The position numbers and the translations under genes are program-made. Positions 25,701-49,454 of a stretch of 64,000 nucleotides of DNA are shown piece by piece (the first letter of the stretch is position 1; each line of letters starts with the position of its first letter). The notes beneath the pieces are model-generated. The model searched no databases. It was not told where the DNA came from and saw only the letters and a list, made by a program, of their open reading frames with translations. The DNA lies in NCBI RefSeq assembly GCF_007746795.1, contig NZ_CP036343.1, positions 7,383,029 through 7,447,028 on the forward strand, in the 5' to 3' direction. Origin of the DNA: Gimesia algae (GTDB lineage Bacteria; Planctomycetota; Planctomycetia; Planctomycetales; Planctomycetaceae).

Positions 25701-28605
25701 AAGCACCGATGTCAACAATCCCATCAAATATTCTTGGGAAACCGGTTCCTCGTTGATCATGAATGAGCCCCACGTTTGTAGCTGCGGAATTGTCACCGGC
25801 ATTAATTGCAGCGCTAAGAGGTAATAATGCATGTGTTTTCGTAGGGCCACCATTGTCTCTCAACACCGGGTCCAGCAAGCCTTCGATGCTGTCCTGGATA
25901 ATGTTGTTGGTGTCACTTCGCAGGGATAAATTTTGCGGTCGGCCATCTTCAGTCGGATTTCCTGCGATGATACTGTTCTTGATCGTAACCGAAACCCAGG
26001 TGCCACTGATACCACCTAAATAAGTCGCTGAATTTCCCGTAATCGTACTGTTGTTAATGACAACTGCCCCAGGTCCCATATTGAGCGTGTAGATGGCACC
26101 GCTGGTTTTTGCACTGTTCCCGGAAATTGTTGTGTTGACGATGTCGACGTTACCACAATTCGTGAAAAAGCCACCGCCACAATTGGTTGCCTGATTTTCC
26201 CATAACGTGCAGTTGAGGATCAGGAGATCACCTCCACATTCAAAATCGAAAAAACTGCCATTGGCGATTCCGGCACCATACAGTCTCGCAGAGTTATGAT
26301 CGAAGGAACTATTCTGAACTGTTAATTCAGTCCAGAGGTTGCCTATGCCTCCGCCTGACCGGTCCGAAATATTGCCGGTAAAGGTGCAATGGTCTACAAA
26401 CGCCTGTCCGAAATCAAATAAGATTCCGGCCCCATTGCCATCGGTCACATTTTCTGAAAAGGTACTGTTCGTCACATTTGCAGTGAAAGTGTAATTTGAA
26501 TAAGGTGCATCGAAAAAGATTCCGCCTCCTCGATCGGCGCTATTATTTGAAAAGGTGCTGCCTGAGACCGTCAGCAGCGTTTCCAAAGCATAGATCCCAC
26601 CGCCGTTAAACGCTGAATTTTCAGTGAATATAGATCCCATAACAGTCAGGGAGCCTGCGGCACTATAAATACCCCCGCCTCCATTAAAGATATTCATCGC
26701 TGCCTGGTTTTTAGATATTGTGCTGTCGGTGATTGTGAGGTTTTCATAATTGAGAATTGCCCCGCCACTGTCTGCGAATCCGTTTGTCAGAGTCAGGCCG
26801 CTCATTTCCACCGTAATCCTGGTTTCAGAATCTCCATCATCAAGATTAAAAATACGGTTTGTATTATTGCCGCTGATCGTGAGTTGATCCGCTCCCAGGC
26901 CGATGATGGTGATATTGTCCGAAATCAACAACTCACTGTTTAAAGCGATTGTCTGACCAGCGAGAGCAGACGCAAACGTGATCGTGTCAGCAGTCAAATA
27001 GGTATTTGACAGCTTAATCGCTTCCCGCAGTGATAAATGACCGGCTGAATAATCACCGTCATCCAGGTCGTCTGCCGTATCAACTACAAGTTCTAAAGGC
27101 TGAAATTCATAAGCACCGATATCAACGAAATCTCCATAGATTCGTTTGAAGACAAAACCTCGTTGATCTTGCGTTAATCCGGCTGTCAGGACAGCCGAAT
27201 TATTGCCGGCATCAATGGCCGCACTTCCGGTCAGCAATGCGTGCGTTTCTGCAGGTCCCCCATTGTCTCGCAATACCGGATCCAGCAGCCCGTCAAGGCT
27301 TGACTGAATAATGTTATTAGATCCTGTATAACTGCCAGAAAACTGGTCCGATGTATTACCCGCCACGATACTGTTTTGAAGCAGGAAAGAACCTGATGTG
27401 TCATGTCTATAAATCCCGCCTCCTGAGAAATAGGTGGCTTCATTTCCGATGATCGTACTATTCACCACTGATACCGCAGTATTGACGAAGGTAAATAATG
27501 CCCCTCCCTGATGGCTGGCCTGATTATAAGAGAGAGTGCTGTTTTCAATGGATATCGAATCAGCGCCATTGTTGTTGATCGCACCACCTGAAAGAGCGGT
27601 ATTTTCAGTGAAGGTCGAACTGGATACGTCCAGTGATCCCTTCCCCAGAATGTTAATGGCTCCACCGGCGCCTGCCTTGTTACTGAAAAAAGTGGACTCA
27701 TTTATTGTCACATCGGCAACAATCAGTTGAATTCCCCCGCCCAGAGATTTCGCTTCATTCTCAGTAAACTGCGAGGCCGTCACTGTCAGATTGCCATTAA
27801 ACGCATAGATGGCTCCGCCGTTCGCTTCGGAGTAATTCTCGATGAACTGACTCTGATCGATGTGCGCTGAGACCCCGCTGAAATAGATGGCGCCCCCGTA
27901 TTCTCCGGTTGCATGATTCTGGGAAAAATGGCTTTCGTCGATGCTTAAGGATCCCTCGATACTGTAAATGGCTCCTCCAGAAAACGCATAGTTCGATTCG
28001 AAAGTTGTATTGGAAACCGAAACCTGATCTGCCTGACTGAAATAAATCCCGCCACCATACTGAGTGGCCGTATTCCCGGTCAGAGTCGAATCTACGATCG
28101 AAAGCATTTCCAGGTTATAAATCGCGCCTCCGTTCTCTGCAGAGCCATTCGTCAGAGTCAGACCACTGATTTCAACATTGATGTCCGAGCTAACGACCCC
28201 ATCATCAATACGAAAAATCCGACTGTCCGCATTCCCATCCAGCGTCAGTTGATCCGCCCCCAGCCCGGTAATCGTCAGGTCATCAGTTATCTGCAGCTCC
28301 GTCGAGAGCACAATCGTCTCACCCGCGAGCGCAGCGTCAAACGAAATCGTATCCGCGCCGGCATTCGCGTTGGCTGCTTCAATTGCATCGCGGAGACTGC
28401 CTGCGCCGGAGTCATCCGAATTCACGACCGTGAACGCGGTCAGCAGCGTGCGGTCTTCCAGCGTCTCAATGAGATTGCGGGAGACCAGTGCCTGGGCAGA
28501 CGGGGTCTGATTTCCAGAGTGCCGATCGCGGCGTAAGCGACGGGAGCGGGAACAACGGTTGCTGAGCTGGCGTTTTAGTGAGGTCAGCCAAAGAGAGTAA
28601 AGCAT
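22798..28605 (-). CDS. Giant surface protein: beta-helix modules, dockerin, matrixin-like protease motif
   Basis: 1935 residues. The N terminus ends a basic stretch with LIETLEDRTLLTAF, the LEPR/LLSA-type opening common to giant planctomycete surface proteins. Three modules follow, each starting with a SLREAI motif (about residues 70, 530 and 1000), running through Gly-rich right-handed parallel beta-helix repeats and closing with a choice-of-anchor Q segment (DNGGPTKTHALLP, then DIGAFE). Then come a cohesin-like domain (about 1480-1640), a dockerin-type EF-hand pair (LNDDDKINYRDLIQLV and YDQNDRVNYRDLILLV, about 1682-1738) and a zinc-protease motif HELGHLLGYEH near 1885. It ends ADAFFADLTADQEFTAF. 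Probably cell-surface, binding or trimming polysaccharide or protein. Confidence 0.85.
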   Translation of the reverse strand: MLYSLWLTSLKRQLSNRCSRSRRLRRDRHSGNQTPSAQALVSRNLIETLEDRTLLTAFTVVNSDDSGAGSLRDAIEAANANAGADTISFDAALAGETIVLSTELQITDDLTITGLGADQLTLDGNADSRIFRIDDGVVSSDINVEISGLTLTNGSAENGGAIYNLEMLSIVDSTLTGNTATQYGGGIYFSQADQVSVSNTTFESNYAFSGGAIYSIEGSLSIDESHFSQNHATGEYGGAIYFSGVSAHIDQSQFIENYSEANGGAIYAFNGNLTVTASQFTENEAKSLGGGIQLIVADVTINESTFFSNKAGAGGAINILGKGSLDVSSSTFTENTALSGGAINNNGADSISIENSTLSYNQASHQGGALFTFVNTAVSVVNSTIIGNEATYFSGGGIYRHDTSGSFLLQNSIVAGNTSDQFSGSYTGSNNIIQSSLDGLLDPVLRDNGGPAETHALLTGSAAIDAGNNSAVLTAGLTQDQRGFVFKRIYGDFVDIGAYEFQPLELVVDTADDLDDGDYSAGHLSLREAIKLSNTYLTADTITFASALAGQTIALNSELLISDNITIIGLGADQLTISGNNTNRIFNLDDGDSETRITVEMSGLTLTNGFADSGGAILNYENLTITDSTISKNQAAMNIFNGGGGIYSAAGSLTVMGSIFTENSAFNGGGIYALETLLTVSGSTFSNNSADRGGGIFFDAPYSNYTFTANVTNSTFSENVTDGNGAGILFDFGQAFVDHCTFTGNISDRSGGGIGNLWTELTVQNSSFDHNSARLYGAGIANGSFFDFECGGDLLILNCTLWENQATNCGGGFFTNCGNVDIVNTTISGNSAKTSGAIYTLNMGPGAVVINNSTITGNSATYLGGISGTWVSVTIKNSIIAGNPTEDGRPQNLSLRSDTNNIIQDSIEGLLDPVLRDNGGPTKTHALLPLSAAINAGDNSAATNVGLIHDQRGTGFPRIFDGIVDIGAFESESLHFLVDSATDTDDGNYSAGNLSLREAIKLSNESPTTDIIAFDASLFDQTLMIYNELVVTDDVTIIGHGAAHLTLSSDGTRRLFRIDDGDAETSISVELSDFTLTNGFANYSSGGAIHSLETLSISDVVFADNQASVLNGPLYSGSYGGAIYSAGDLTVTNSTFVRNSADWYGGAIYSTEGLLSITGCDFTENQTSYAGGAIVAQNGDLTVSASTFTENSSDTLGGGIFINEGVLTVGETDFTQNSSSTGGAIYHQISSTFPPVFTELSIADCTFQGNTTTSAGGAVYFSSGLSLYRSYYTAFIEDSHFSENSASFGGALYLRAYNLLLTGSTFFNNSASLYGGAISDYSDNLTIQNSLFEKNSAKSWGGGIYSQGSLVLQNSTLSGNTALVVGGGIAFDHLSYDWEIINSTLTGNAASRIGGGIYAFPGLYGTITNSIVAGNTAASTPQVIYHVKKTNSIVQDSVAGLLDPVLRDNGGVTKTHALLPGSAAINGGNNSALDDTNPLIINRRAITEDQRGAGFERIAGETIDIGAFEVQHTFAQIELRMVDEKTTTQSNGEQTTLPDNLTWIDEWSGYWLEIWISTPTANDLGVLSAAMNLSYNTTITTATAIEYGAAFTVHQTGTINDLAGVIENLSAETSLTDVGDDQRVLFARIRFESTASDGIDLDLTGQLMIPKSPEFTVHQTEVQLVGSIATQEVHGPAPETLVFANPYDLNDDDKINYRDLIQLVRVYGVTPSEANSDYAWFADYDQNDRVNYRDLILLVNNYGKSKARQSNVNYSQGFPDTWNRHLTVEPTLLPQLNARPVEQASAETTLNSVVESLDPQLTPAENEKLAQVDIEIVDLPEGVLSNTVQGTIYIDVNAAGYGWFVDNTPDDNSEFYATGPYTLVSAPFGNMNALGKIDLRTVILHELGHLLGYEHADDGVMQESLVPGERRLADWESEADAFFADLTADQEFTAF

Positions 28606-37372: not shown

Positions 37373-39055
37373 TTACCGATGCCGGTTCCACGAGAGCGCC
37401 AGTGGTATCGTGGCAAGGGGCGCAAAAGCAAGCGCAAACAACGAGAGGAAAAAGACGTACAGACAGAAAGTCAGAACCTCTGCCGGCCCCGTCGGTGCAG
37501 GAAATTTCAGCCAGATCGCAGCCAGAGAACCGACCAGCCACAGTCCGCCGACGATCGCTGCCGTTGATACTTTCGTCAATCCCCTGCGACAGGCGGTGAC
37601 AAAAGCGGTCACCACGCCGACAAAGATCAGGAACGCCAGCGCCAGGAAAAACGCCATTTGGTAATAGAGATTGTTGGGGGAATGGGAAACTCGATCGGTT
37701 GAATTGACAATGAAGACAAACAGACCGAAGCAGCCAATAATACTGCCGATCACCAGATAATAAAACCAGGAGCGTCCGGTCCAGAGTACGGAACTCACAT
37801 TCGCAGCAATCGTCCAGAAACAGGCCAGAGAATACGCGGTGTAAACGAACCAGTAGAGTAGCACTCTGGAGGTTACAATCGAAGCCTGGTCTCCCTGAAG
37901 CATGCCGGGGGCGACGAATACCAGCATATTCAACATCAATCCCGCCTGTATCAGCAGACTTGCATAGAGTACTGTTTTGACCAGGTTTCCGAACAATGCG
38001 ACCACGAAGTCACGGTCTGATAACGGAGTGACCGCCAGAAAGCCTTTCATTTCCGTTCTGCCCGGTCCGCATGTTCCTTCGCCGGCAACAAGCCCGACTA
38101 CAAGCGCAGCAATGATCGAAAACATCAAATAGATTTGCATAAAGCCTTCGGTCATATTAATCGGATGTGAACCGTTGGCGTTTCGCAGGACCGTATTGAG
38201 AACCAGAACGGCGACACCAAACATTCCTCCACCCATGATGACCGCGCGCTGACAGCTGTCGCGCCAGTGCAGACGGGCGAGTGCCGCCCGGTGTGAATCT
38301 AACGTCGTAAGACTGCTGGAGCTTGCACCAGTCGTCAGGCTGTCCCACCAGTTGCGGGTCTGTGTCCATTGTGGACTGGGTAAAGCAGTACCGGAACGGA
38401 GACTGGAAAAAGCGCGTGTTCCCTGATACCAGGCGGCCAGACTCACCAGTTGCATCAACGCGAATTCGCCGAGCGTCACATGACTCCAGGGAACGGCATC
38501 CGCTTTGAATCCATCGGGAAAGTAGCGTGACAGGAACCACCAGAACAGCGCCACGATAATTCCCATACTCAAAATGATGCGTGTATAACTGGGCGCATTC
38601 AGAGTCCAGAAAATCGCGTGTCCCGTCAGAACCAGAGTAACCAGAAACAGCACTGGACCTAAAACGGGCCAGTAATCGGAGAGCCAGCGTTCATCAAAAA
38701 ACAGAGCCCGGTAGGCACCATTCGTTGCCAGTTGTAAGACAACCACCAGCCCCACCATCGCCAGCATCAACCAGGTGGCAATGGCCCGGGAAGAGATCGG
38801 TAAGCCGCGACAAAACGTCTGACAACCTGCCAGGGCCCGCACGGTGATACTGAGAAAAAGAACCCAGGAAATCCCCAGATAAGTAAAGTGCAGGCTAAAC
38901 ATTTCCTGGTCATTATAAGGAATGCGATACCCCTGCAAATGCATCAGAATTCTGATCATCAGAGGCACGATCACGAGCGTAGCCACGCCGATTGAAGCGC
39001 CCGGCCAGGCACGTTTACAAAAACTTTTTGTCGTCGCAATCAAGGCGGATGACAT
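37373..39055 (-). CDS. ABC-type permease-like membrane protein, sixth paralogue
   Basis: 560 residues, last gene of the leftward GntR-ABC operon. About twelve hydrophobic segments, interrupted by a hydrophilic region near residues 235-270 with the family motif RLHWRDSC. Other shared segments are WYQGTRAF, TEMKGFLAVTPLSDRDF and the C terminus ATIPLALSWNRHR. The start at ATG 39055 has GAGG ten bases upstream; a longer frame up to 39127 lacks support. The gap to the gene before it is 89 bases. It should sit in the inner membrane and pair with the ATPase at 47932-48837; substrate unknown. Confidence 0.75.
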   Translation of the reverse strand: MSSALIATTKSFCKRAWPGASIGVATLVIVPLMIRILMHLQGYRIPYNDQEMFSLHFTYLGISWVLFLSITVRALAGCQTFCRGLPISSRAIATWLMLAMVGLVVVLQLATNGAYRALFFDERWLSDYWPVLGPVLFLVTLVLTGHAIFWTLNAPSYTRIILSMGIIVALFWWFLSRYFPDGFKADAVPWSHVTLGEFALMQLVSLAAWYQGTRAFSSLRSGTALPSPQWTQTRNWWDSLTTGASSSSLTTLDSHRAALARLHWRDSCQRAVIMGGGMFGVAVLVLNTVLRNANGSHPINMTEGFMQIYLMFSIIAALVVGLVAGEGTCGPGRTEMKGFLAVTPLSDRDFVVALFGNLVKTVLYASLLIQAGLMLNMLVFVAPGMLQGDQASIVTSRVLLYWFVYTAYSLACFWTIAANVSSVLWTGRSWFYYLVIGSIIGCFGLFVFIVNSTDRVSHSPNNLYYQMAFFLALAFLIFVGVVTAFVTACRRGLTKVSTAAIVGGLWLVGSLAAIWLKFPAPTGPAEVLTFCLYVFFLSLFALAFAPLATIPLALSWNRHR

Positions 39056-39144
39056 CAGAAGTACCTCAGTTCTATTTAACCAGACACACCGAACATCAGT
39101 GTTGCCTTTTCCACATTTAAAAACCAAATCTCATTCAAGTGAGA

Positions 39145-40887
39145 CTACCGATGCCGGTTCCATGACAGTGCCAGAGGAATCGTGGCAAACGGCGCGAGGA
39201 CCAGGGCACCCAGGGCTGAAAAAACACAAAACTCCCCACACATCGTCCGAAACGGGTAATGTGGAGCCATGCTCAGCAAAGTCACCAGCACTCCCATGAC
39301 AGCAAATGACCAGAGCAAACCCGCCCCAAGGAACCGGGCTTTTGAGATCAATTGCCTGCGACGGGCAGCCATGTAGGCGGCGAGAGTGCCTCCCAGAATC
39401 AGAAAATATAAAATCAGCAACATGCTGATGATGACCCATTCCGCCAGATACTGACGAGGAAAAAATGCTTCCAGCAAGCTAATCATCATGCTGTAGAAAA
39501 ACAGACCACCAAAGCAGACTCCGATCGCAGAGACGATAAACCAGGTACGTCCTGTCCAGAGTACGGAAACTATATTCGCAGCGATGATCCAGAATCCGAT
39601 CAATGTCACCAGCGTATGACACAAAAATCCATTTCCTCCGAATAAATACAACAGCATATCACTCAAGCTGTTTGATCCATTCCCCAGAAAACCGGTTACC
39701 TGCAGTACGCTCAACGTGTCTACTCCATAAAGTACTGCAGTGACGATCAGACTCAGCAGCAGAGCCGATTGAACGATCAGAATGGACCAGCCCAACACTT
39801 TGACCATGTTCGAGAACAGTGTGGCATTAAAATCAGGATCCGTCACCGGAGCCATTGCCAGACAGCGTTTCATTTCCGTGCGTCCCGTGCTGCAAATCCC
39901 CAGCCCCAATATCGCTCCTGCAGTGACAGCAGCGGCCAAGGTGAGAATAGTTGACATGGCTACAAAACCTTCCAAGACATCTCGCAGAGCTGTCGGCTCT
40001 GAATTGAGCCGTGTCCCAATCAAAAGGTTGAACATCAACAACAACAGGCCGAATACTCCTCCCCCGACAATAACAGACTGCTGACACGAATCGCGCCAAT
40101 GCAAACGGGACAGCGATGATCGCGGCGAGAAGGGAACCACTGACTGCTCGGGAATCGCTCCGGTGAGCAGCGCATTCCACCAGACCTTCATCCTTTCCCA
40201 GGCAGGGCTGGGAACCGCGGTACCGGCACGGACCTCTGCAAAGGCACGTGTCCCCTGATACCAGGCCGCGAGGCAGGTCAGTTGCATGGTCACAAGCTCA
40301 CCCAGCGTCACGCGACTCCAGGGAACGATATCTGACTTGAATCCGTTCGGGTAATACCGGGAAACAAACCAGACCAGCATTCCCATCGTCAAAGAGACTC
40401 CCAGAAATGTTTTAGTAAAGCTGGGAGCATGCATGCTCCAGAACAGGCAATGTCCCACCAGAATCAGGGTAACCAGAAATAAGAGCGGTCCCAATAAAGG
40501 CCAATAATTGGTAAGCCAGTGCTCATCAAAAAACAGCAGCCGATAGAGACCATTGGTCAGTAGTTGCAGCACCACCACGAACCCCGCCATTGCCAGCATC
40601 AGCCAGGTGGCAATGGAAGCAGAAGAAACCGGCAGACCCAGACAGTATTTTTCGCTGCCAGAGAATGCATGCAGACAGACACCCAGAAAAAAGACCCAGG
40701 AGACCCCCAGATAGGCAAAATGAAAGTCAAAGTAATTCTGCTCCATCTGATCCGATTGTAATCCGTTGAACTTTAAAATAAGCACAATCGACAGGGGTCC
40801 CATCACCAGCGCCCCGACGGCGAGAACCGCGCCGAACCAGGCACGTTTACAAAACTGTTTGGTGGTCGCATAAAAGATGGATGACAT
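39145..40887 (-). CDS. ABC-type permease-like membrane protein, fifth paralogue
   Basis: 580 residues, the longest of the six. Same plan as its neighbours: N terminus MSSIFYATTKQFCKRAW, motif RLHWRDSCQQ, the segment GRTEMKRCLAMAPVTDPDF and C terminus FATIPLALSWNRHR. The start at ATG 40887 follows GAGGTACCACTG. An 82-base spacer separates it from the upstream paralogue. It also has a long loop near residues 390-410 (GFLGNGSNSL) that its sisters lack. Predicted integral inner-membrane protein. Confidence 0.75.
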   Translation of the reverse strand: MSSIFYATTKQFCKRAWFGAVLAVGALVMGPLSIVLILKFNGLQSDQMEQNYFDFHFAYLGVSWVFFLGVCLHAFSGSEKYCLGLPVSSASIATWLMLAMAGFVVVLQLLTNGLYRLLFFDEHWLTNYWPLLGPLLFLVTLILVGHCLFWSMHAPSFTKTFLGVSLTMGMLVWFVSRYYPNGFKSDIVPWSRVTLGELVTMQLTCLAAWYQGTRAFAEVRAGTAVPSPAWERMKVWWNALLTGAIPEQSVVPFSPRSSLSRLHWRDSCQQSVIVGGGVFGLLLLMFNLLIGTRLNSEPTALRDVLEGFVAMSTILTLAAAVTAGAILGLGICSTGRTEMKRCLAMAPVTDPDFNATLFSNMVKVLGWSILIVQSALLLSLIVTAVLYGVDTLSVLQVTGFLGNGSNSLSDMLLYLFGGNGFLCHTLVTLIGFWIIAANIVSVLWTGRTWFIVSAIGVCFGGLFFYSMMISLLEAFFPRQYLAEWVIISMLLILYFLILGGTLAAYMAARRRQLISKARFLGAGLLWSFAVMGVLVTLLSMAPHYPFRTMCGEFCVFSALGALVLAPFATIPLALSWNRHR

Positions 40888-40969
40888 CAGTGGTACCTCA
40901 TTTTTCAACGAATTTCATGGCTTAAGACAAGCCTTTTTTTCTTAGCAGAGTGATCCTGTTTCAGTTGAA

Positions 40970-42670
40970 TTACCGATGCCGGTTCCACGTCAGCGCCAGT
41001 GGAATCGTCGCGAACGGAGCCAGGACCAAAGCACACAGCGACGCGCAGAACAGTAATAACCCCCAATTGACACTGCGATAGTATTGAAAGCGTTCCAGCA
41101 TCCAGGTCAGAGCTCCGACAAGGCTTGTGAGCCAGAATACCAGCGCCACGATCGCGACTGTCTGTGAGATCAGTTTCCGGCGGAGGGCCGTTATATAAGC
41201 GGCGATGGTTCCACCACAAATCAACAGAGGCGGTAACAACAGCAGCACGATTGTCATGTAGTGATAGAGCATCGAATTACGAAACAGAGTATCTCCGAGA
41301 TTCATCAGAATGATATAAAAGACTATCCCCCCGAAGAAGACGCCGATCGCCGTAAAATAAAACCAGGAACGACCGGTCCAGAAGACAGAAATCATATTGG
41401 CCGCGATGACCCAGAAACCGATGACCAGTAAAAACACAGGTAATATCGAACTTCCTCCCCGAATGACCGAAGAGAACAACACCTGAAATACCTCAGCTCC
41501 ATGCCAGATCCCGGCGATGATCAGGCTGAGCGTGAGCGCAACGACGATACCCATAAATGTCAGTCCCAGTGTTTTGAGCAGATTGCGGAACAGGGTCGAA
41601 TTCAGATCGCGATCGACAAGCGGCGCTTTGGCAAGGAACTGCTTCATTTCAGTTCGTCCGCTACCCGTGGTCCCCTCTCCCATGAGGACGGCAACGATAA
41701 TGGCTGCAATCAGACCAAACAACATTGAGGAAATCGAAAAAACTTCTACCAGTTGACTGAAATTATTCTGGTTGGTTCGGGAGGGATCAAAGTTGGCGAT
41801 GACCAGCACATTGATCACCAGCATGGTCAGTCCAAATCCCACTCCGGCAAGTAACGCCGCCCGCTGACAGGAATCGCGCCAATGCAATCGGGCCAGAGCC
41901 GCTTTCCGCGAGAGAGGCACAATCGGCTGCTCTGGGATGGAACCCGTCAGTAACCCCTTCCACCAGACCTGAAGCTGTTCCCACTGGGGGCTGGGCAGCG
42001 CTGTCCCATTCCGCACATGGGCAAAGGCACGGGTCCCCTGGTACCAGGCAGCGACGCCGAGGCTCTGCATCAGAATAAATTCACCCAGCGTGACGGTACG
42101 CCAGGGTACGATTTCCTCGTTATATCCATTGGGGAAGTAGCGGGAAATAAACCACCAGAACAGCGCGACTACCACGGCTGACCAGAAAATGCATTTTGTC
42201 AGGCTGGGTGCGTGCAGGCTCCAGTAAGCGGCGTGTCCCACCAGGATCAAGGTCACCATAAACAACAGTGGTCCCAATAGAGGCCAGTAGTCCGCCAGCC
42301 AGCGATCGTCGAAAAACAGAACGCGATACAGACCATTGGTCACCAGTTGTAATGCGACCACCAGCCCCACCATCGAGAGCATCATCCAGGTGGCAATCGA
42401 AGTCGAAGAGACAGGCAGACCCAGACAGAATTTCTCACTGCCGGTGAGCGCTTGCAGACAGACACCAATAAAAAAAATGTATGAAACACCCAGGTAAGCA
42501 AAATGGTAATCAAACACATTCTGCTCAAGATGTTCGAGACGCAATCCCTGCACTTGCATGATAATCCGGGAGATCAGGGGTCCCAGCACCAGGGCTCCCA
42601 CCGCCAGCAATGCTCCGAGCCTGGCACGTTTACAGTAATTTCGGGTCGTCATTAAGAAGGCAGATGACAT
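40970..42670 (-). CDS. ABC-type permease-like membrane protein, fourth paralogue
   Basis: 566 residues. N terminus MSSAFLMTTRNYCKRAR; family motifs ARLHWRDSCQRAA and GRTEMKQFLAKAPLVDRDL; C terminus PFATIPLALTWNRHR, with Thr where the others have Ser. ATG 42670 follows GAGGTGTCCCTG, the same leader as the fifth and sixth copies. Multiple hydrophobic segments. Confidence 0.75.
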   Translation of the reverse strand: MSSAFLMTTRNYCKRARLGALLAVGALVLGPLISRIIMQVQGLRLEHLEQNVFDYHFAYLGVSYIFFIGVCLQALTGSEKFCLGLPVSSTSIATWMMLSMVGLVVALQLVTNGLYRVLFFDDRWLADYWPLLGPLLFMVTLILVGHAAYWSLHAPSLTKCIFWSAVVVALFWWFISRYFPNGYNEEIVPWRTVTLGEFILMQSLGVAAWYQGTRAFAHVRNGTALPSPQWEQLQVWWKGLLTGSIPEQPIVPLSRKAALARLHWRDSCQRAALLAGVGFGLTMLVINVLVIANFDPSRTNQNNFSQLVEVFSISSMLFGLIAAIIVAVLMGEGTTGSGRTEMKQFLAKAPLVDRDLNSTLFRNLLKTLGLTFMGIVVALTLSLIIAGIWHGAEVFQVLFSSVIRGGSSILPVFLLVIGFWVIAANMISVFWTGRSWFYFTAIGVFFGGIVFYIILMNLGDTLFRNSMLYHYMTIVLLLLPPLLICGGTIAAYITALRRKLISQTVAIVALVFWLTSLVGALTWMLERFQYYRSVNWGLLLFCASLCALVLAPFATIPLALTWNRHR

Positions 42671-42742
42671 CAGGGACACCTCTTTATTTCATTAAGCCTC
42701 AAACCAACAAACCACACACATCTCATTCCATTCAGAAAACAG

Positions 42743-44434
42743 TCAGCGATGACGATTCCAGGAGATCGCTAAAGGAATCGTGGCGAAGGGCGCGAAGATC
42801 AACGCCAACAGAACCGTCAATCCTAAAAAACCGATCCAGTGATCCGGCATTGTCGGCTGTTGAGACATCCAGAGCTCGAACAGAACCAGTCCAGTCAGGC
42901 TGAAATACAATGCCACTTGTCTGGTTCGCTTTTGAATTAAACAACGTTTGCTGGCATCCAGGTAAGCGCCGATGGTGGCACTGATGATCACCAGCGAATA
43001 AACCAGGAAAATGATTGTTCCGAATGCCTGCAACGCTCGATAGCTCCCAGTGGCTTGCAGTATTTGCTCGATTATCACGTAAGCAATATTGCCCACGATC
43101 ACAACGCCCACAACCGTATTGCAGAGCCACTGGCGGCCGGTCCAGCAGAGTGAGAGTAAATTCGCAGCCAGAATCCAGAACCCAATCATCGCGACACTGG
43201 AATAAATCAGATTTTGCTGGAGCCATTCATTCAAGTCATATTTTGTGTGAAATATCTCTGTCCCCTGTATCATCAAAAAACCAGCGTAACTGAGCAGCAG
43301 CGCCAGTTGAATCAGGGCCATTACAAGCAGGAGCGTTTTCGCCATATTCCCGAACATCGTCGCGGACAACTCCCTGTCCGACAGCGGCGTCATCGCCAGA
43401 AAGCGATTCATTTCCGTATTACCGGTTCCGGCGAGGCTGCCTGCCAGCATAATCACCACACCAATCGCCGCGATGCCGGAGAGCACCAGCGTTGTGATCT
43501 GAAATGTTCCCGAAAGCTCCAGCAGGTGATTCAACTCAGGACTGCTGGAATCATACATCGCAACGGAAGCCAGATTCACAATCAGGACTGCGACACCAAA
43601 TAAAACCCCGCCCACAATGACGGCCCGCTGACAGGAGCCACTCCAGTGCAGGCGTGCGAGTGTCATTCTCCGTGAAAGCGGAACCGACATCCGTTCGGGA
43701 ATCCTGCCGGTGATCAATGCGGTCCACCAGAGTTGCGCCTGATCCCACTGTGGCGACGGCGTTGCGGCGCCATTACGAATGTTCGCAAAAGCGCGAACTC
43801 CCCCCAGCCAGGCAACCAGACTGACCAACTGCAGCGTGACGAATTCCCCCAGCGTCACATGGCTCCAGGGAACGATTCCTCTGACAAAACCGTTTGGATA
43901 ATAACGGGCGACGAACCAGAAAAACAGCAACCCAAAAGCCGTCCCCCAGCCTGCGACTTTCAGAAAACCGGGCGCGTGCATACTCCAGAAACAGTGATAA
44001 CCGACCATCACCAGCGTGCAAAGAAACAACAGCGGCCCCAACACGGGCCAATAGTCGGCGAGCCAGTGTTCGTCAAAAAACACCAGCCGATACAGGCCAT
44101 TCGTGACCAGGCTGAGCAGGACCACGATCCCCACTGAGGAAAACATCAGACCGCTGGCGATCCGGGCGGAGGAAAGCGGCAGGCCTCGAATCATCAGCTG
44201 CGAACCATGTAGCGCATGCAGACAGACGGCAATAAAGGTCACCCAGGAGGCAGCCAGAAACGAAAAGTGAAAATGAAACGGTTTCACACTGCCGGAGTCT
44301 GTCGGCCCCTCCAGAAGGTAGATCAGTTCACGCAACGAGAGCGGCCCGAGCACGAGCAGACAAACCGCCAGCACCGCCGCCAGCCAGGCGCGTTTCGTAA
44401 ATGTTTTTGTAACGACAAAGAGCAGATGTGTCAT
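42743..44434 (-). CDS. ABC-type permease-like membrane protein, third paralogue
   Basis: 563 residues. Its first 27 residues (MTHLLFVVTKTFTKRAW and onward) match the second copy almost exactly. It has ARLHWSGSCQRAV instead of LHWRDSCQ, the segment GNTEMNRFLAMTPLSDREL, and C terminus PFATIPLAISWNRHR. The 5' end and leader lie in a 140-bp block nearly identical to the start region of the second copy. Confidence 0.75.
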   Translation of the reverse strand: MTHLLFVVTKTFTKRAWLAAVLAVCLLVLGPLSLRELIYLLEGPTDSGSVKPFHFHFSFLAASWVTFIAVCLHALHGSQLMIRGLPLSSARIASGLMFSSVGIVVLLSLVTNGLYRLVFFDEHWLADYWPVLGPLLFLCTLVMVGYHCFWSMHAPGFLKVAGWGTAFGLLFFWFVARYYPNGFVRGIVPWSHVTLGEFVTLQLVSLVAWLGGVRAFANIRNGAATPSPQWDQAQLWWTALITGRIPERMSVPLSRRMTLARLHWSGSCQRAVIVGGVLFGVAVLIVNLASVAMYDSSSPELNHLLELSGTFQITTLVLSGIAAIGVVIMLAGSLAGTGNTEMNRFLAMTPLSDRELSATMFGNMAKTLLLVMALIQLALLLSYAGFLMIQGTEIFHTKYDLNEWLQQNLIYSSVAMIGFWILAANLLSLCWTGRQWLCNTVVGVVIVGNIAYVIIEQILQATGSYRALQAFGTIIFLVYSLVIISATIGAYLDASKRCLIQKRTRQVALYFSLTGLVLFELWMSQQPTMPDHWIGFLGLTVLLALIFAPFATIPLAISWNRHR

Positions 44435-44506
44435 AATTTCACCGCACACTCATTGATCCAGATTTACAATTGAAAAAGCCATATATCACCGATGCCGATT
44501 CCACGA
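44367..44506 (+). repeat. 140-bp near-identical repeat at a permease junction, copy 1
   Basis: About 96% identical by hand count (five mismatches in 140) to 46155-46294, in the same orientation and 1788 bases away. It spans the last codons of one paralogue, the 51-base spacer and the first codons of the next. Confidence 0.85.
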
Positions 44507-46222
44507 CACAGCCAGCGGAATTGTCGCGCAAGGAGTGACCAGTAAAGTCAGAAGTACGAAAACAAAAAATCGCATACTGTTAATTCCCGCTGCACGAAAG
44601 AAGAAATTTGAATTCCAGATACGGTAAAACACGGAATCATATTCATCACCCCTAAGAGAACTGCAGAACCATACTGCGGTCAGCAAAAACAAAACCGCCA
44701 TCAGAACACCGGTTAATGTAATCAGTTTTTTTCGATATGCGATTAAATAAGCGACAACTGTCCCTGCTAATATAAAAGTGGAGAGCATCATGGCCAATCC
44801 GTAAAGCAAGCCGGTAATGGATTCAGATTGAATGCAGGCACCGATCAGAATTAAGGCAAAACACAATCCGCCAAACAGGGAAAGCACAGTTAAATAGAAC
44901 CAGGTACGCCCCGTCCAGAAAATCGATACCATGGTGGAAGAGACACCCCATAAAATTGTCGCCGAGAGAAACAGAAAAGACACTGACTGTTCTGGCATCC
45001 TGCTGACATAAGACTCTAAAAACAGCATATTCAATGGGGCTGCATTGAAATCAAAATAATGCAGTACGACGATATGACTGAGCAGACAACCCAGCACCAG
45101 ACTGGTCCAGACCAGGCAGACCGTCTTGACTAAATTTCGCATCAAAATAGCAGAAAAATCTCGATCTGACAGCGGAACGGCACTCAGGTAACGTTTCAGT
45201 TCTATGCGGCCGGGTTTGTGAATCCCATCGCCCAGCAAAAACCCCATGAGCAGCGCCGCAAGTAAAATCAATGTATTGGTTACCACTGAGATGCTTTGGA
45301 TATAACTCCAGAAAGCAGCCGTCTGACCGCCAGGCACATAAGACAGCTTGAATAACAGAAAACTCAGAAACACTCCCCCCGCGCCAAAATATAATCCCCC
45401 GATCATCACCGTACGGCGACAGGAATCGCGCCACTGCAATTGTGACAGCGAGCGTTGTTGCGAACTGAATTCTACCGGACGATCAATATGTATTCCCGAT
45501 GAAAGGGTATTCCAACAGACCATCAGCTTCGACCACTGCAGGCTGGGTTCAGCCGTCCCCGCTCGAACTTTCTCAAATGCACGAGTTCCCTGGTACCAGG
45601 CCGCGATGTTAATAACCAGCAAGGTTGACCAGTCCAAAAGAGTGACATGATTCCAAGGCACAACCGGTTCTTGAAAACCGTTTGGAAAATAGCGTGAGGC
45701 AAACCACCAGCAAAGCGCAGCGACGAAACTGATACTGAAGAAACTCCCGGTTATACTGGGGGCAAACCTGCTCCAGAATAAAGAATGTCCTACCAGAACA
45801 AGTGTGACTAAAAACAATAATGGCCCCAGTAACGGCCAATATTCGCTCAGCCAGTTTTGATCGAAAAAGAAGACGCGATACAGCCCATTCGTAACCAGAT
45901 TAAGGATCAATACCAGCCCGACCGTCAACAGGATCAAGCCGCTGACAATCGCAGTTGAAGAAACTGGCAATCGCAGCACGATTTTCTCACATCCCTGCAG
46001 GGCATGGACGCAAATTGCGATAAAAAAGATCCACGACAATCCCAGAAACGCAAAATGATACTGAAACGGATCAGTGGAGATACCATAAGCCCCCAGTTCT
46101 TTAATCGACATCAATCCACGAAAAACGAGCGGCACGAACACCAGCACGCTGACAGCCAGCACCGCCGCCAGCCAGGCGCGTTTCGTAAATGTTTTTGTAA
46201 CGACAAAGAGCAAATGTGTCAT
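44486..46222 (-). CDS. ABC-type permease-like membrane protein, second paralogue
   Basis: 578 residues. N terminus MTHLLFVVTKTFTKRAW, identical to the third copy over 20 or more residues. It has LQWRDSCRRTV for the central motif and GRIELKRYLSAVPLSDRDF for the loop, and C terminus CATIPLAVSWNRHR, with Cys for Phe. Spacer 51 bases to each neighbouring paralogue. Multiple hydrophobic segments; predicted inner membrane. Confidence 0.75.
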   Translation of the reverse strand: MTHLLFVVTKTFTKRAWLAAVLAVSVLVFVPLVFRGLMSIKELGAYGISTDPFQYHFAFLGLSWIFFIAICVHALQGCEKIVLRLPVSSTAIVSGLILLTVGLVLILNLVTNGLYRVFFFDQNWLSEYWPLLGPLLFLVTLVLVGHSLFWSRFAPSITGSFFSISFVAALCWWFASRYFPNGFQEPVVPWNHVTLLDWSTLLVINIAAWYQGTRAFEKVRAGTAEPSLQWSKLMVCWNTLSSGIHIDRPVEFSSQQRSLSQLQWRDSCRRTVMIGGLYFGAGGVFLSFLLFKLSYVPGGQTAAFWSYIQSISVVTNTLILLAALLMGFLLGDGIHKPGRIELKRYLSAVPLSDRDFSAILMRNLVKTVCLVWTSLVLGCLLSHIVVLHYFDFNAAPLNMLFLESYVSRMPEQSVSFLFLSATILWGVSSTMVSIFWTGRTWFYLTVLSLFGGLCFALILIGACIQSESITGLLYGLAMMLSTFILAGTVVAYLIAYRKKLITLTGVLMAVLFLLTAVWFCSSLRGDEYDSVFYRIWNSNFFFRAAGINSMRFFVFVLLTLLVTPCATIPLAVSWNRHR

Positions 46223-46294
46223 AATTTCACCACAAACTCATTGATCCAGATTTATAATTGAAAAAGCCCTATATCACCGATGCCGATTCCACGA
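46155..46294 (+). repeat. 140-bp near-identical repeat at a permease junction, copy 2
   Basis: Partner of 44367-44506. The 1788-base separation equals one permease gene plus spacer, so recombination between the copies would delete or duplicate exactly one gene. Confidence 0.85.
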
Positions 46295-47926
46295 GACCGC
46301 CAGCGGGATCGTCGCGAAGGGGAGCACGGTGAATACCAGCAAGGATGATTGAAACAGCTTCGTAGGTAATTCGTTGTAGCTCCAGAAATTCCAGTAGAAG
46401 GCAGGAACGATTAGACAAAACAACGCTGCCAGCCAGATGACCTGCACACCGATCAGCCTGGCACGGTAAGCTTGAATGTAAGCGATTACAGTGGCAGACC
46501 AACTCAGTCCGACAAAGAGTAGCAGGAGAACAAAGCCGAACACTGGATAAAAAATACCAAATATTGAAGCAACTAATAATAGCGGAAGTAATAGAATCAG
46601 GTTCCCAGCGAAACACGTAGAATTAAGCCAAAACAAAGAGATACTATTTGCAACAAAGATCCAGTATGCCAGAAGAGCGTAACCGGCAGTGATTAACAAT
46701 TCACTTTTTGATTCAAAGGTCACTACAGATTGCCAGCACTGTCTGATGACATCCGTCCCTTGTGATAGCACAAAGGCGATATAACTGCCTCCCAGTCCCA
46801 GAATCACCACAAACAATAAAGAAAGGATCACACATTTCAGAATACAACGTAGCAGGACAGCAGAGAGTTCCCGATCAGAAAGAGGCACGCCTGCCAGATA
46901 ACCTTTCATTTGAGAGTAATTTCGCGTCGAAAGGGAATTGATCAAGCCCCCGAACAAGATCACGATAGCAGCCTGTATCGAAAATAATGCGGAAAGACCA
47001 AACATGGGGCTCATGTTAGGATCCAGTTCAACCTTCCCCTGACTCGCGTGATACAAGTAACTGGACAGATTGATAAAAAAAACAAGACAGCCCAACAAAG
47101 CGATGATCAGAGTCAACGTGCGACACGAGTCGAGCCAATACAGTCGTGACACCGCACTCCATGCAGAAGGAAAGCCAATGTTCTCTTTTCTCAAAGTCCG
47201 ATGTTTGAAACTGCTCAAAAATGCTGTGACCCGTTCCCACATCCAGCTGTGCACTGTGGTTCCGCAGCGTACACTGGCAAAAGATCGCACCGCCACAATC
47301 CAGGCTATAACATTCACCAGTAACATCGTAGCCAACTCTGACAACGTCACTTGAGTCCAGGGAAACAGCGGGCCGTTTAACCCCTGCGGAAAGTAGCGGG
47401 TCAATAACCAGTACAGCATCCCCAGTCCAAATCCGCTCCAGAACAGAATCCGAATGAAACCGATTGGCTGCAAATTCCAGTAAGCGGAATGGACGACCAT
47501 CACCAGCGTCATCAGGAACAGGGTCGGTCCTGTAACAGGCCAATATTCTCGCAGCCAGTTTTCATCAAAATACAACAGGCGGTAAAACACATTAGTCAGC
47601 AGATAGCAGACCAATGTGATACCCATGGTAGACAGGATCGGTCCGCTGACTATTTCTACCGACCGAACGGGCATTTGAGGCATCATTCTCTGTATCTGTT
47701 GCAATTCGCCAAAACATAAGCCCAGAAACAGGAACCACGAAACGCCGAGAAAGAGGAGATGTATCTCTGACGACTGATACAAAGCATACGGAAACAGGCC
47801 GAACACCACCCGGCACAATAACCCTAGAACCAATGGTGCCAGCACCAGAAATCCTGCCAGTACCAGCCCAATTGGCCAGAGTAATCGTAATGAATATTTT
47901 GTAACCCGTAACAGACCGTCTGTCAT
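46274..47926 (-). CDS. ABC-type permease-like membrane protein, first paralogue
   Basis: 550 residues and the most divergent of the six. It keeps the C terminus PFATIPLAVSWNRHR and SQMKGYLAGVPLSDRELSA, while the central motif is RLYWLDSCRTL. The ATG at 47926 follows the ATPase stop by five bases; a TTG at 47935 would overlap the ATPase stop region. It is the first permease gene behind the ATPase and may represent the ancestral partner. Confidence 0.75.
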   Translation of the reverse strand: MTDGLLRVTKYSLRLLWPIGLVLAGFLVLAPLVLGLLCRVVFGLFPYALYQSSEIHLLFLGVSWFLFLGLCFGELQQIQRMMPQMPVRSVEIVSGPILSTMGITLVCYLLTNVFYRLLYFDENWLREYWPVTGPTLFLMTLVMVVHSAYWNLQPIGFIRILFWSGFGLGMLYWLLTRYFPQGLNGPLFPWTQVTLSELATMLLVNVIAWIVAVRSFASVRCGTTVHSWMWERVTAFLSSFKHRTLRKENIGFPSAWSAVSRLYWLDSCRTLTLIIALLGCLVFFINLSSYLYHASQGKVELDPNMSPMFGLSALFSIQAAIVILFGGLINSLSTRNYSQMKGYLAGVPLSDRELSAVLLRCILKCVILSLLFVVILGLGGSYIAFVLSQGTDVIRQCWQSVVTFESKSELLITAGYALLAYWIFVANSISLFWLNSTCFAGNLILLLPLLLVASIFGIFYPVFGFVLLLLFVGLSWSATVIAYIQAYRARLIGVQVIWLAALFCLIVPAFYWNFWSYNELPTKLFQSSLLVFTVLPFATIPLAVSWNRHR

Positions 47927-47931
47927 GGTTC

Positions 47932-48837
47932 TCAATCCTTCTCTAAAGCACGCTGTGCCGATTTCATGCGGGCGACGAATATTTCTTCCAGTGTCGGTGC
48001 GGTCTGATCCAGGATCTCGGCTTCCAGCTGTTCCAGCTCTGTTTCCAGTTCCTGTTTCTGACCGTTACAGACGATCTTCCACTCTCTGCCCGAGCCCGAC
48101 CACATCAGTGCGCCGGTCAACTGCGGGAAATAAGGCTGCGGTTCCAGGAAGCGGATCGTCAACTGGTAATGCGAGACGAGCACTTCATCCAGTGGGCTTG
48201 TGAGTAACAGTTTGCCCTGATCGAGAATCGCGATGCGATCAGAGACGCGCTGCACTTCATCTAACAGATGCGAGGAAAACAGAACGGTCCGCCCTTCATC
48301 GACGACCGTACGAATGATGGCGTCCAGAATGTCTTTACGAACCACCGGATCCAGTCCGGACGACGGTTCGTCCAGCACGAGCAGCGGCGGTCGATGGGCC
48401 AGCGCAACGAGCAGGCCGGCCCGCGCCAGTTGGCCGCGTGACAGTGTCGGCACTTTCTGATTCAATGACAGCTCAAACATCATTCTCAGTTCTTCTGCGT
48501 AGACCGGATCCCATTTCGGATAGAAGGCCCGCGTGAATTCAATCAGTTCGCGTACCGTCATCCAGGCCGGGAGGTCGCGGTTTTCCGAGAGATGTCCGAT
48601 CCTTCCCAATACGCCAGGCGGGTCAGCCACCGGGTCCAGACCAAATACGCGCACACTCCCCTGCTGCGGCTTCAAAAAGCCCAGCACATGTTTTAACAAC
48701 GTGGTTTTGCCGGCTCCATTTTCGCCGACCAGTCCGAACACACAGCCTTCAGGCACAGACAGACTGACGTCGGACAACGCCTGTTTCTTGCCGAAGTGAC
48801 GACTTAAATTGCTGACTTCAATGACATGTTCGCTCAT
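47932..48837 (-). CDS. ABC transporter ATP-binding protein
   Basis: Cytoplasmic ATPase of 301 residues powering the transporter. Walker A is GENGAGKTT (about residues 38-46), Walker B is LLVLDEPSSGLDP, and the switch His is in FSSHLLDE. The signature motif reads LSRGQ where LSGGQ is canonical. The last 80 residues form a C-terminal extension seen in exporters of the YtrB/CcmA/DrrA type. Its ATG overlaps the stop of the GntR gene (ATGA), and it ends five bases before the first permease, so the genes are tightly coupled. Only one ATPase serves six permease paralogues. Confidence 0.93.
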   Translation of the reverse strand: MSEHVIEVSNLSRHFGKKQALSDVSLSVPEGCVFGLVGENGAGKTTLLKHVLGFLKPQQGSVRVFGLDPVADPPGVLGRIGHLSENRDLPAWMTVRELIEFTRAFYPKWDPVYAEELRMMFELSLNQKVPTLSRGQLARAGLLVALAHRPPLLVLDEPSSGLDPVVRKDILDAIIRTVVDEGRTVLFSSHLLDEVQRVSDRIAILDQGKLLLTSPLDEVLVSHYQLTIRFLEPQPYFPQLTGALMWSGSGREWKIVCNGQKQELETELEQLEAEILDQTAPTLEEIFVARMKSAQRALEKD

Positions 48838-49232
48838 TTTACGACCTCTTGATGTGAATCAAATTTCTGGCTCCGCTGACGGAGTAATTTCAACAGGGTC
48901 TCTTCATCTACGCCCAGTTGACGCGATTCGGTCAGCAGGGCATCCATGCGTTCGTTGAGGATGCGGCGTTTTTCTTTATTAGACAGGGGAGAAACGCCAT
49001 TAGATATGAAAACTCCAGCGCCGCGCTTCGAGATCACGACACCCTCGGCTTCCAGCTCGCGATAGGCCCGCGCAACCGTATTGGGGGTAATCGTCAGCTG
49101 CTGCGCCAGCCCGCGGACGGACGGCAATTGCTCGTGGGCTTCGAGACGACCGGAGGCCACCAGAAACTTGACCTGGTTCACGACCTGCTGGTAATAAGGC
49201 GTGCCATCCGCTTCGGATAATTGAATCTGCAT
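48834..49232 (-). CDS. GntR-family regulator, YtrA subfamily
   Basis: Transcriptional repressor of 132 residues, the size of YtrA-type GntR proteins. The N-terminal winged helix reads PYYQQVVNQVKFLVASG, LPSVRGLAQQL and TPNTVARAYRELEAEGV; a short helical dimerisation tail follows with no effector-binding domain. ATG 49232 has GAGG seven bases upstream; a longer frame to 49295 runs through the presumed operator. It is the first gene of the operon and overlaps the ATPase by four bases. Repression of its own operon, relieved by an unknown signal (cell-envelope stress in YtrA relatives), is inferred. Confidence 0.9.
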   Translation of the reverse strand: MQIQLSEADGTPYYQQVVNQVKFLVASGRLEAHEQLPSVRGLAQQLTITPNTVARAYRELEAEGVVISKRGAGVFISNGVSPLSNKEKRRILNERMDALLTESRQLGVDEETLLKLLRQRSQKFDSHQEVVK

Positions 49233-49250
49233 TGGAAAAACCTCATTTAG

Positions 49251-49276
49251 AATTGTATCAACACAGTAATACAATT
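49251..49276 (-). promoter_or_regulatory. Candidate YtrA-type operator upstream of the GntR-ABC operon
   Basis: Perfect inverted repeat AATTGTAT (49251-49258), ten bases, ATACAATT (49269-49276). It lies 18 bases upstream of the regulator start codon. YtrA-like regulators typically bind AT-rich inverted repeats in their own promoters. Confidence 0.65.
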
Positions 49277-49454
49277 TACAGACACTGTCAATCAAATTAT
49301 TTGTTTATTCACCTCGGTGTTTTTTCACAAAATTTATTTATTCCGCAAATCACAGCCTCAGCAAATCGATGCTTGCGGAATCGGGCTGCTCACTCCAAAA
49401 TGACATATGGTTGCTCTGACATTATCTGCATTCTTACTCTGAAAGCCTTCGCTC

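Follow-up and report, generated by a model that had tools for sequence, protein, structure and literature searches.

A Gimesia operon with one ABC ATPase and a variable set of tandem permeases: signs of whole-gene and half-gene exchange between species

Introduction

In the mycobacterial ATP-binding cassette (ABC) multidrug efflux pump Rv1217c-Rv1218c, a single permease gene is partnered with a single ATPase gene. The locus discussed here lies in a 64,000-nucleotide stretch of the genome of the marine planctomycete Gimesia algae (contig NZ_CP036343.1; hereafter the window) and consists of a leftward operon (37373-49232) that encodes a GntR-family regulator, one ABC ATPase and six homologous membrane proteins of 550-580 amino acids (P1 to P6), all on the minus strand. 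Its ATPase matches Rv1218c, and the predicted structure of P3 aligns with the permease of the same pump (PDB 8k1m, 8k1n, 8k1o, 8k1p), the matched chain of which is presumably Rv1217c. The permeases of the two systems share no sequence similarity detectable by profile search, and Gimesia has many permeases per ATPase.

In layout the locus resembles the YtrA-type GntR-ABC operons, such as YtrABCDEF of Bacillus subtilis, ClnRAB of Clostridioides difficile and PmtR-PmtABCD of Staphylococcus aureus, which likewise have a small GntR regulator, an adjoining ABC ATPase gene and a palindrome over the promoter. The Gimesia proteins also show NCBIfam similarity to PmtA and PmtR, below the family cut-offs. 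ClnRAB has one permease (PMC6117091) and YtrBCDEF two (PMC7828314). Cell-envelope agents or antimicrobial peptides elicit a response from known operons with this arrangement (PMC7828314, PMC6117091); ClnRAB is induced by LL-37, yet is reported not to contribute significantly to resistance (PMC6117091). In contrast, Gimesia loci carry two to nine large permeases of a family without a Pfam or NCBIfam model, and these genes appear to be exchanged as cassettes.

Sharing of one motor by several transporters is described for energy-coupling factor (ECF) transporters, multitask ATPases of the MsmX kind and the shared importer ATPases MceG and FhuC (PMC7658222, PMC10368641, PMC9947336, PMC10147376). 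Those systems are importers, whereas the Gimesia locus has tandem homologous exporter-like permeases in one operon with their motor. In the literature searched, which mostly does not extend to subscription journals, no title or abstract opening dealt with tandem exporter permeases that share one ATPase. In plan, the array is also similar to integron gene-cassette arrays, in which a constant 5′ part with one promoter is followed by a variable list of genes. The Gimesia junctions, read by eye, differ in having no shared intergenic element across permease types; no search for an integrase or attC sites was made.

A constant regulator and ATPase beside a variable permease array

The permease family was found in all 17 Gimesia genomes searched, and 13 arrays were read (the window and 12 fetched loci), the fragmented genomes G011, G013, G015 and G016 (1, 1, 3 and 3 partial matches) being set aside. 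Every array has a single GntR gene and a single ATPase gene, co-directional and overlapping by 4 nt in 13/13, and identity between the window proteins and their counterparts in the other 12 arrays is 90-99% (GntR) and 84-99% (ATPase). The surroundings are just as constant: a sulfatase gene stands beside the array in all 13, and a cytochrome c peroxidase gene lies on the opposite side in the 12 of 12 stretches that reach that far. Permease number, compared across these related genomes, ranges from 2 to 9 (6 in the window, then 7, 2, 2, 2, 5, 5, 3, 6, 9, 6, 2 and 4; 59 in total) and differs even between close relatives, such as G001 with 7 and G007 with 3.

The 59 permeases fall into 14 types of patchy occurrence, drawn by hand from a quick tree that included five outgroup proteins and left 8 forks open; one of these forks holds TX and, as one of its sides, type T2. 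No type is common to all 13 arrays. T2 (10/13) and T1 (9/13) sit at the end distal to the ATPase, and the ATPase-proximal slots vary even among three close genomes, in which the order is T6-T5-T4-T3-T2-T1 (window), T5-TF-T4-T3-T2-T1 (G008) and T5-TX-T4-T3-T2-T1 (G010). All three thus keep T1-T5, and T6 is missing from G008 and G010, the two closest relatives of the window genome.

Exchange of whole permease genes

To compare permeases with their surroundings, identity at 4-fold-degenerate sites was taken for all 1576 between-genome permease pairs and set against that of the backbone (regulator, ATPase and flanking genes). Three pairs stand above it: G001_4/G005_2 (0.891 vs 0.50), G001_5/G009_6 (0.89 vs 0.484) and G008_2/G009_5 (0.747 vs 0.516). 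For the two G009 pairs the backbone is limited to GntR, ATPase and sulfatase, since the remaining flanking genes lie beyond the end of the fetched stretch. Synonymous divergence (dS) agrees. It is 0.131 for G001_5/G009_6, 0.116 for G001_4/G005_2 and 0.415 for G008_2/G009_5, against 1.65, 1.73 and 1.11 for the ATPases of the same genome pairs, and the T2 and T1 permeases of the G001/G009 and G001/G005 pairs give 1.26-1.70. Compared with the T2 permeases of the same arrays, G001_5/G009_6 and G001_4/G005_2 yield Fisher p values of 2e-24 and 9e-30, for pairs that were selected as extremes. Since G001 and G009 are single-contig genomes, a mixed assembly is unlikely there. As judged from these sequence comparisons, some whole permease genes have been exchanged between Gimesia species at this locus, and the regulator, the ATPase and the flanks were not exchanged along with them.

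The limits of the shared tracts point to the unit that moves. By BLASTN each tract starts 54-166 nt before the preceding permease's stop codon and finishes 0-5 nt from that of the shared gene. In 60-nt windows, identity is about 0.60-0.85 at the 3′ end of the preceding gene and rises to about 0.9 at the leader. One of the three cases shows an early drop, within the last 90 nt (0.75, then 0.42). Leaders largely track the type of the downstream gene, so that TD, TF and TX have related leaders of 17-19 nt whether they follow T5, T6, TD or TF genes, and the slot 1 leader is 3-5 nt after the ATPase stop in 10/13 arrays (G002, G003 and G012 being exceptions). The exchange unit therefore looks like a cassette of leader plus open reading frame (ORF), with its seam in the conserved 3′ coding end. 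Boundaries at conserved coding ends are what ordinary homologous recombination would give, and a ComEC-family gene in the genome would fit with DNA uptake. The shared cassettes are still open reading frames, with a ratio of nonsynonymous to synonymous divergence (dN/dS) of 0.29-0.58, and the ATPases next to which they stand are resident ones that took no part in the exchange.

Within the window, one such seam is repeated: the segment from the 5′ end of P5 through the leader to the 3′ end of P6 (46110-46321) is an 88% identical partner of the repeat listed in Table 1. Homogenisation of seams was considered as a strong signal and set aside, the effect being modest and partly present between genomes too.

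Half-gene mosaics

Exchange also appears to involve parts of genes. In three comparisons, with support at synonymous sites, the break falls at P3 residue 262-281, where the second membrane half starts or close beside that point; because the break points were picked on the same data, the p values are optimistic. For G008_4/G010_4 the 4-fold identity is 0.61 to the left of the break and 0.92 to the right (p 2e-11), with G000_4/G010_4 behaving likewise; for G004_1/G014_2 it is 0.90 and 0.67 (p 8e-6), and for P6 of the window against G005_1 it is 0.48 and 0.70 (p 0.006). The first half of P6 is 56% identical in nucleotides to G005_1/G006_1 and the second half 82% (z 7.3 among 1711 pairs). In one further case, G010_2 (TX) against type TF, the break exists at the protein level only (4-fold 0.51 left, 0.44 right, p 0.55), and other strong breaks lie at residues 194, 311, 443 and 489-499.

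A change-point scan gave 86/150 pairs with an observed change point that was not reached in 200 shuffles, 46 of them at P3 residues 240-300; these are not taken as counts of events, because the first half of the protein is more conserved than the second and the pairs are not independent. The claim is accordingly restricted to comparisons supported at synonymous sites, and on that basis some half-genes are judged to be exchanged between Gimesia species, near the junction of the two membrane halves.

The permease family: predicted fold and constraint

The original prediction, six tandem permease-like proteins with a GntR regulator and one ATPase, is borne out by the ORFs, their order and their strand. 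The six permeases align end to end with 30-48% identity to P1, a mean column identity of 55% and 80 invariant columns, which places their homology beyond doubt, and all six end in PLA-x-[ST]-WNRHR. In Pfam and NCBIfam none reaches a family cut-off, the lowest E value being 0.0032 (P5 against UPF0220, below its cut-off). The curated ABC-2 membrane families are included in that result, so the permeases are ABC-2-like by predicted structure only. The AlphaFold2 model of P3, of fair confidence, has 14 helices of membrane length, all but the sixth transmembrane helix (TM6) backed by hydropathy, and aligns with the permease of Rv1217c-Rv1218c over 432-439 residues. TM2 and TM8 are each followed by a conserved, predicted cytosolic stretch. 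Stretches in such positions can be read, from general knowledge of ABC transporters, as coupling helices. Two coupling motifs seem to be present in each permease, and every chain appears to contain both transmembrane halves.

Variation is unevenly spread along the protein. Mean identity between types is 0.48 in the cytosolic parts vs 0.27 in the external loops (p 2e-8), and the second-half transmembrane helices are also at 0.27. Across eight close genome pairs, dN/dS is 0.11-0.52 for same-type permeases (the value of 0.52 resting on very few changes), 0.00-0.05 for the ATPase, 0.00-0.10 for GntR and 0.03-0.20 for flanking genes. The permeases are by these estimates constrained, yet evolve several times faster than their ATPase. 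Positive selection was considered and rejected, none of the same-type values lying above 1, and no internal stop was found in any of the 59 Gimesia copies. In G009 the third permease after the ATPase (L046:10655-12301, G009_3) has a degraded form of the conserved end (FATIPLGVSRSRHC) and is perhaps a copy beginning to decay.

Two other identities were tried and rejected. As a defence system the operon finds little footing in PADLOC, where five of the six permeases have no match and P5 has one at 0.0055. Hits of the ATPase are to ATPase models (mad3 the best, 2.8e-27) and those of the regulator, which are weak, to winged-helix models (0.00087 at best); they were read as generic. A phage or plasmid origin was checked with P6 and P3 against PHROGs rather than against phage records themselves: P6 has one weak match of unknown function (0.0031) and P3 none, and P3 has no match in plasmids. 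The ATPase matches ABC-transporter families of PHROGs (best 1.8e-55).

Regulator, ATPase and promoter

The regulator is a short protein without a large ligand domain, and its YtrA-type placement is based on domain and size. The Pfam GntR match covers residues 15-77 of the 133-codon stretch searched, and the NCBIfam PmtR match (8e-17) scores 61.4 bits against a cut-off of 200. The ATPase motifs, read by eye, comprise Walker A GENGAGKTT, signature LSRGQ, Walker B LLVLDEP and H-loop SSH, and residues 6-289 match Rv1218c with an E value of 1.7e-33.

A single conserved putative promoter region stands ahead of GntR in the window operon (Table 1), and its TTGACA element and the palindrome are kept in 13/13 Gimesia arrays. 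The TTGACA/TACTGT promoter is not among the hits of the automated promoter scan, as TACTGT fails the scan's -10 rule. With the degenerate pattern TGTATNACNNNGTTNATACA the whole genome has one zero-mismatch site, the operon's own, and 16 two-mismatch sites, compared with 4 sites for the backwards control. One of the 16 belongs to a second GntR-ABC operon in the same genome (L086:1074-2412; C1:4988103-4989441), where it lies 15 nt ahead of the GntR gene; this operon encodes a 131-aa GntR protein and then a membrane protein of another kind, which extends beyond the end of the locus. Conservation of the palindrome, together with the similar site before this second operon, supports a candidate operator read by regulators of this type. 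Terminator-like sites in the segment 36900-49600 number 26 vs 16.3 in shuffles (sd 3.4), 23/26 of them on the minus strand.

Distribution outside Gimesia

Outside the genus, 79/153 genomes of the same planctomycete family match the wider profile, a few of them marginally: 67 with one match and 12 with two or three, some of these 12 being fragments of a single gene at the ends of contigs. Copies may have been missed, because at most 8 candidates were scored per genome in this search (4 in the phylum sample, 9 in another wide search). Twenty stretches from 19 genomes were read, with a filter for overlapping ORFs that hides some neighbour genes; 12 list GntR and ATPase beside the permease and 19 at least one of them. 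The same operon thus occurs elsewhere among planctomycetes, as a three-gene form in other genera of the family, and since loci there are mostly of this one-copy kind, the form GntR, ATPase and one permease is probably ancestral. Tandem permease pairs occur in two of the 20 stretches, L065 and L072. The pair at L065:1965-5248 (G024) has no GntR or ATPase listed alongside and is either an orphan pair or one whose partners are hidden by the ORF filter. At L029 (G149), in another genus, a family member has one or two in-frame stops and may be a pseudogene or reflect an assembly error.

The residues P, N and R at the protein end are invariant in a 26-row alignment that includes other genera, which assigns the conserved end to the permease family rather than to the arrays. 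In a phylum sample of 294 genomes, 10 have a match, one of them outside the planctomycete family and marginal (E 9e-4, one stop). Among the genomes searched, long arrays were seen in Gimesia only, and the permeases were found nearly only in one planctomycete family.

Features of the window

The Gimesia algae genome is a single contig of 7.93 Mb and holds exactly six copies of the permease gene, in searches with P6 and with the six-row alignment alike. ORF calls confirm the order GntR, ATPase and six permeases. Spacing within the operon goes from a 4-nt overlap up to 89 nt before the core start codons; the longest-ORF starts of 5/6 permeases are probably 3-24 codons too early, the core starts being MSS, MTH or MTD, and the longest ORF for GntR would give 153 residues. 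Elsewhere in the window, the product of a minus-strand gene (22798-28605) is 1935 aa long and contains repeats of the Chlamydia polymorphic membrane protein kind (Pfam Chlam_PMP 3.8e-40).

Table 1 Features of the GntR-ABC operon (positions in the window)
Feature	Position	Strand	Remarks
Operon promoter/operator region	49254..49291	-	TTGACA 49291-49286, 17-nt spacer, TACTGT 49268-49263; elements assigned by eye
Palindrome TGTATTACTGTGTTGATACA	49273-49254	-	Overlaps putative promoter upstream of GntR
GntR-family regulator, YtrA size	48834..49232	-	132 aa, MQIQLSE start; Pfam GntR 5.6e-17
ABC ATPase	47932..48837	-	301 aa; Pfam ABC_tran 2.7e-23
Permease P6 (type T6), slot 1 after ATPase	46274..47926	-	Mosaic; break near 47142
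Permease P5 (type T5), slot 2	44486..46222	-	ORF, alignment, tree
Permease P4 (type T4), slot 3	42743..44434	-	ORF, alignment, tree
Permease P3 (type T3), slot 4	40970..42670	-	Protein taken for AlphaFold2 model
Permease P2 (type T2), slot 5	39145..40887	-	Type in 10/13 arrays
Permease P1 (type T1), slot 6, distal end	37373..39055	-	Type in 9/13 arrays
Seam repeat: P4 5′ end, leader, P5 3′ end	44322..44533	.	Repeat family D5

Interpretation and alternatives

Three readings of the six-permease array had been put forward in the original prediction: exchangeable permeases using one ATPase, a hetero-oligomeric channel, and rapid diversification under selection. The first is the best supported, by the one architecture of the permeases, their conserved cytosolic parts and the exchanged cassettes beside resident ATPases, and it is quite likely that several permeases are run by the one ATPase. 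A slightly more guarded judgement applies to the locus as a whole, which is probably an ABC-2-like exporter whose motor is constant and whose permease set varies. The third reading holds in part. Diversification is seen in cassette and half-gene exchange and in a dN/dS several times that of the ATPase; overall positive selection is not, as all values are below 1.

The reading as a hetero-oligomeric channel, in which different permease copies would pair on a common ATPase, fares worst of the three. The permeases are apparently co-transcribed with a single ATPase, and hetero-pairs of half-transporters are common among ABC exporters. Against this stand the copy numbers, which rule out an obligate assembly of six (2-9 copies across 13 arrays, one in 67/79 matching genomes of other genera), the absence of any universal type, the two coupling-type motifs per chain and the P3 model, most of which aligns with one permease chain; altogether such a channel is quite improbable. 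More weight, if still unlikely, is due to tandem duplication and homologous recombination without any change of specificity, where additional copies increase dosage or are tolerated, and sequence similarity brings exchange as a side effect. Variable copy number between close relatives, dN/dS below 1 without a sign of positive selection, the degraded end of G009_3 and the looser constraint on the most recently shared cassettes (dN/dS 0.58 and 0.34) would all suit it. It accounts less well for a set in which 0/59 copies have an internal stop, the window paralogues are divergent from one another rather than fresh duplicates, T1-T5 are retained in all three close relatives, and variation is focused on external loops and second-half helices with the cytosolic parts conserved.

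The permeases could instead be mainly sensors, each binding a different ligand and signalling through the ATPase or GntR. Operons of such layout can signal, as the LL-37 response of ClnRAB, reported to be unaccompanied by a significant part in resistance, suggests (PMC6117091), and the transport role of YtrBCDEF is described as unresolved (PMC7828314). The catalytic motifs of the Gimesia ATPase are intact by eye and no large extracellular loop of the BceB kind appears in hydropathy or model, so sensing as the main role is improbable. Least probable is that variation reflects escape from phages or toxins that use the permeases as docking or entry points, rather than a change of substrate. External loops are indeed among the most variable parts and the genes are exchanged between species, but the loops are no more variable than the second-half transmembrane helices, a docking target would be widened and not removed by having many co-expressed copies, and an inner-membrane position would limit access.

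Under the preferred reading of a constant motor with a variable permease set, the GntR protein would act as a repressor of the operon, bound at the palindrome over the -10 element, and would let go in the presence of an inducer. Each permease apparently having both transmembrane halves, an ATPase homodimer and one permease would suffice for a complete transporter, as sequence and predicted structure suggest, and the six permeases may operate in parallel with different substrate preferences. The set would have been built and diversified by cassette and half-gene exchange around the fixed regulator and ATPase. That the substrate cannot be read from the sequence still holds. The structural match to a drug efflux pump, together with the response of operons of like layout to envelope agents and peptides, makes efflux of toxic amphiphiles the likeliest role, at a little short of even chances, with permease choice setting specificity. 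The substrates might be antimicrobial peptides, ionophores or polyketides from the environment, and a change of the permease set might change what is expelled; these steps are the least certain.

Significance

The locus may, tentatively, represent an evolving exporter repertoire, in which each species would reassemble its own list of permease cassettes by trading whole genes and transmembrane halves with other species. Efflux specificity would then be gained when a new gene or half-gene is placed in a fixed chassis of regulator and motor, making the locus an exporter counterpart of the ECF importers with combinatorial shuffling. The recently shared permease genes, placed next to resident ATPases that stayed out of the exchange, amount to a natural swap experiment. 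They make a long-standing question directly testable, namely what sets the partner ATPase of an ABC exporter permease and what sets its substrate.

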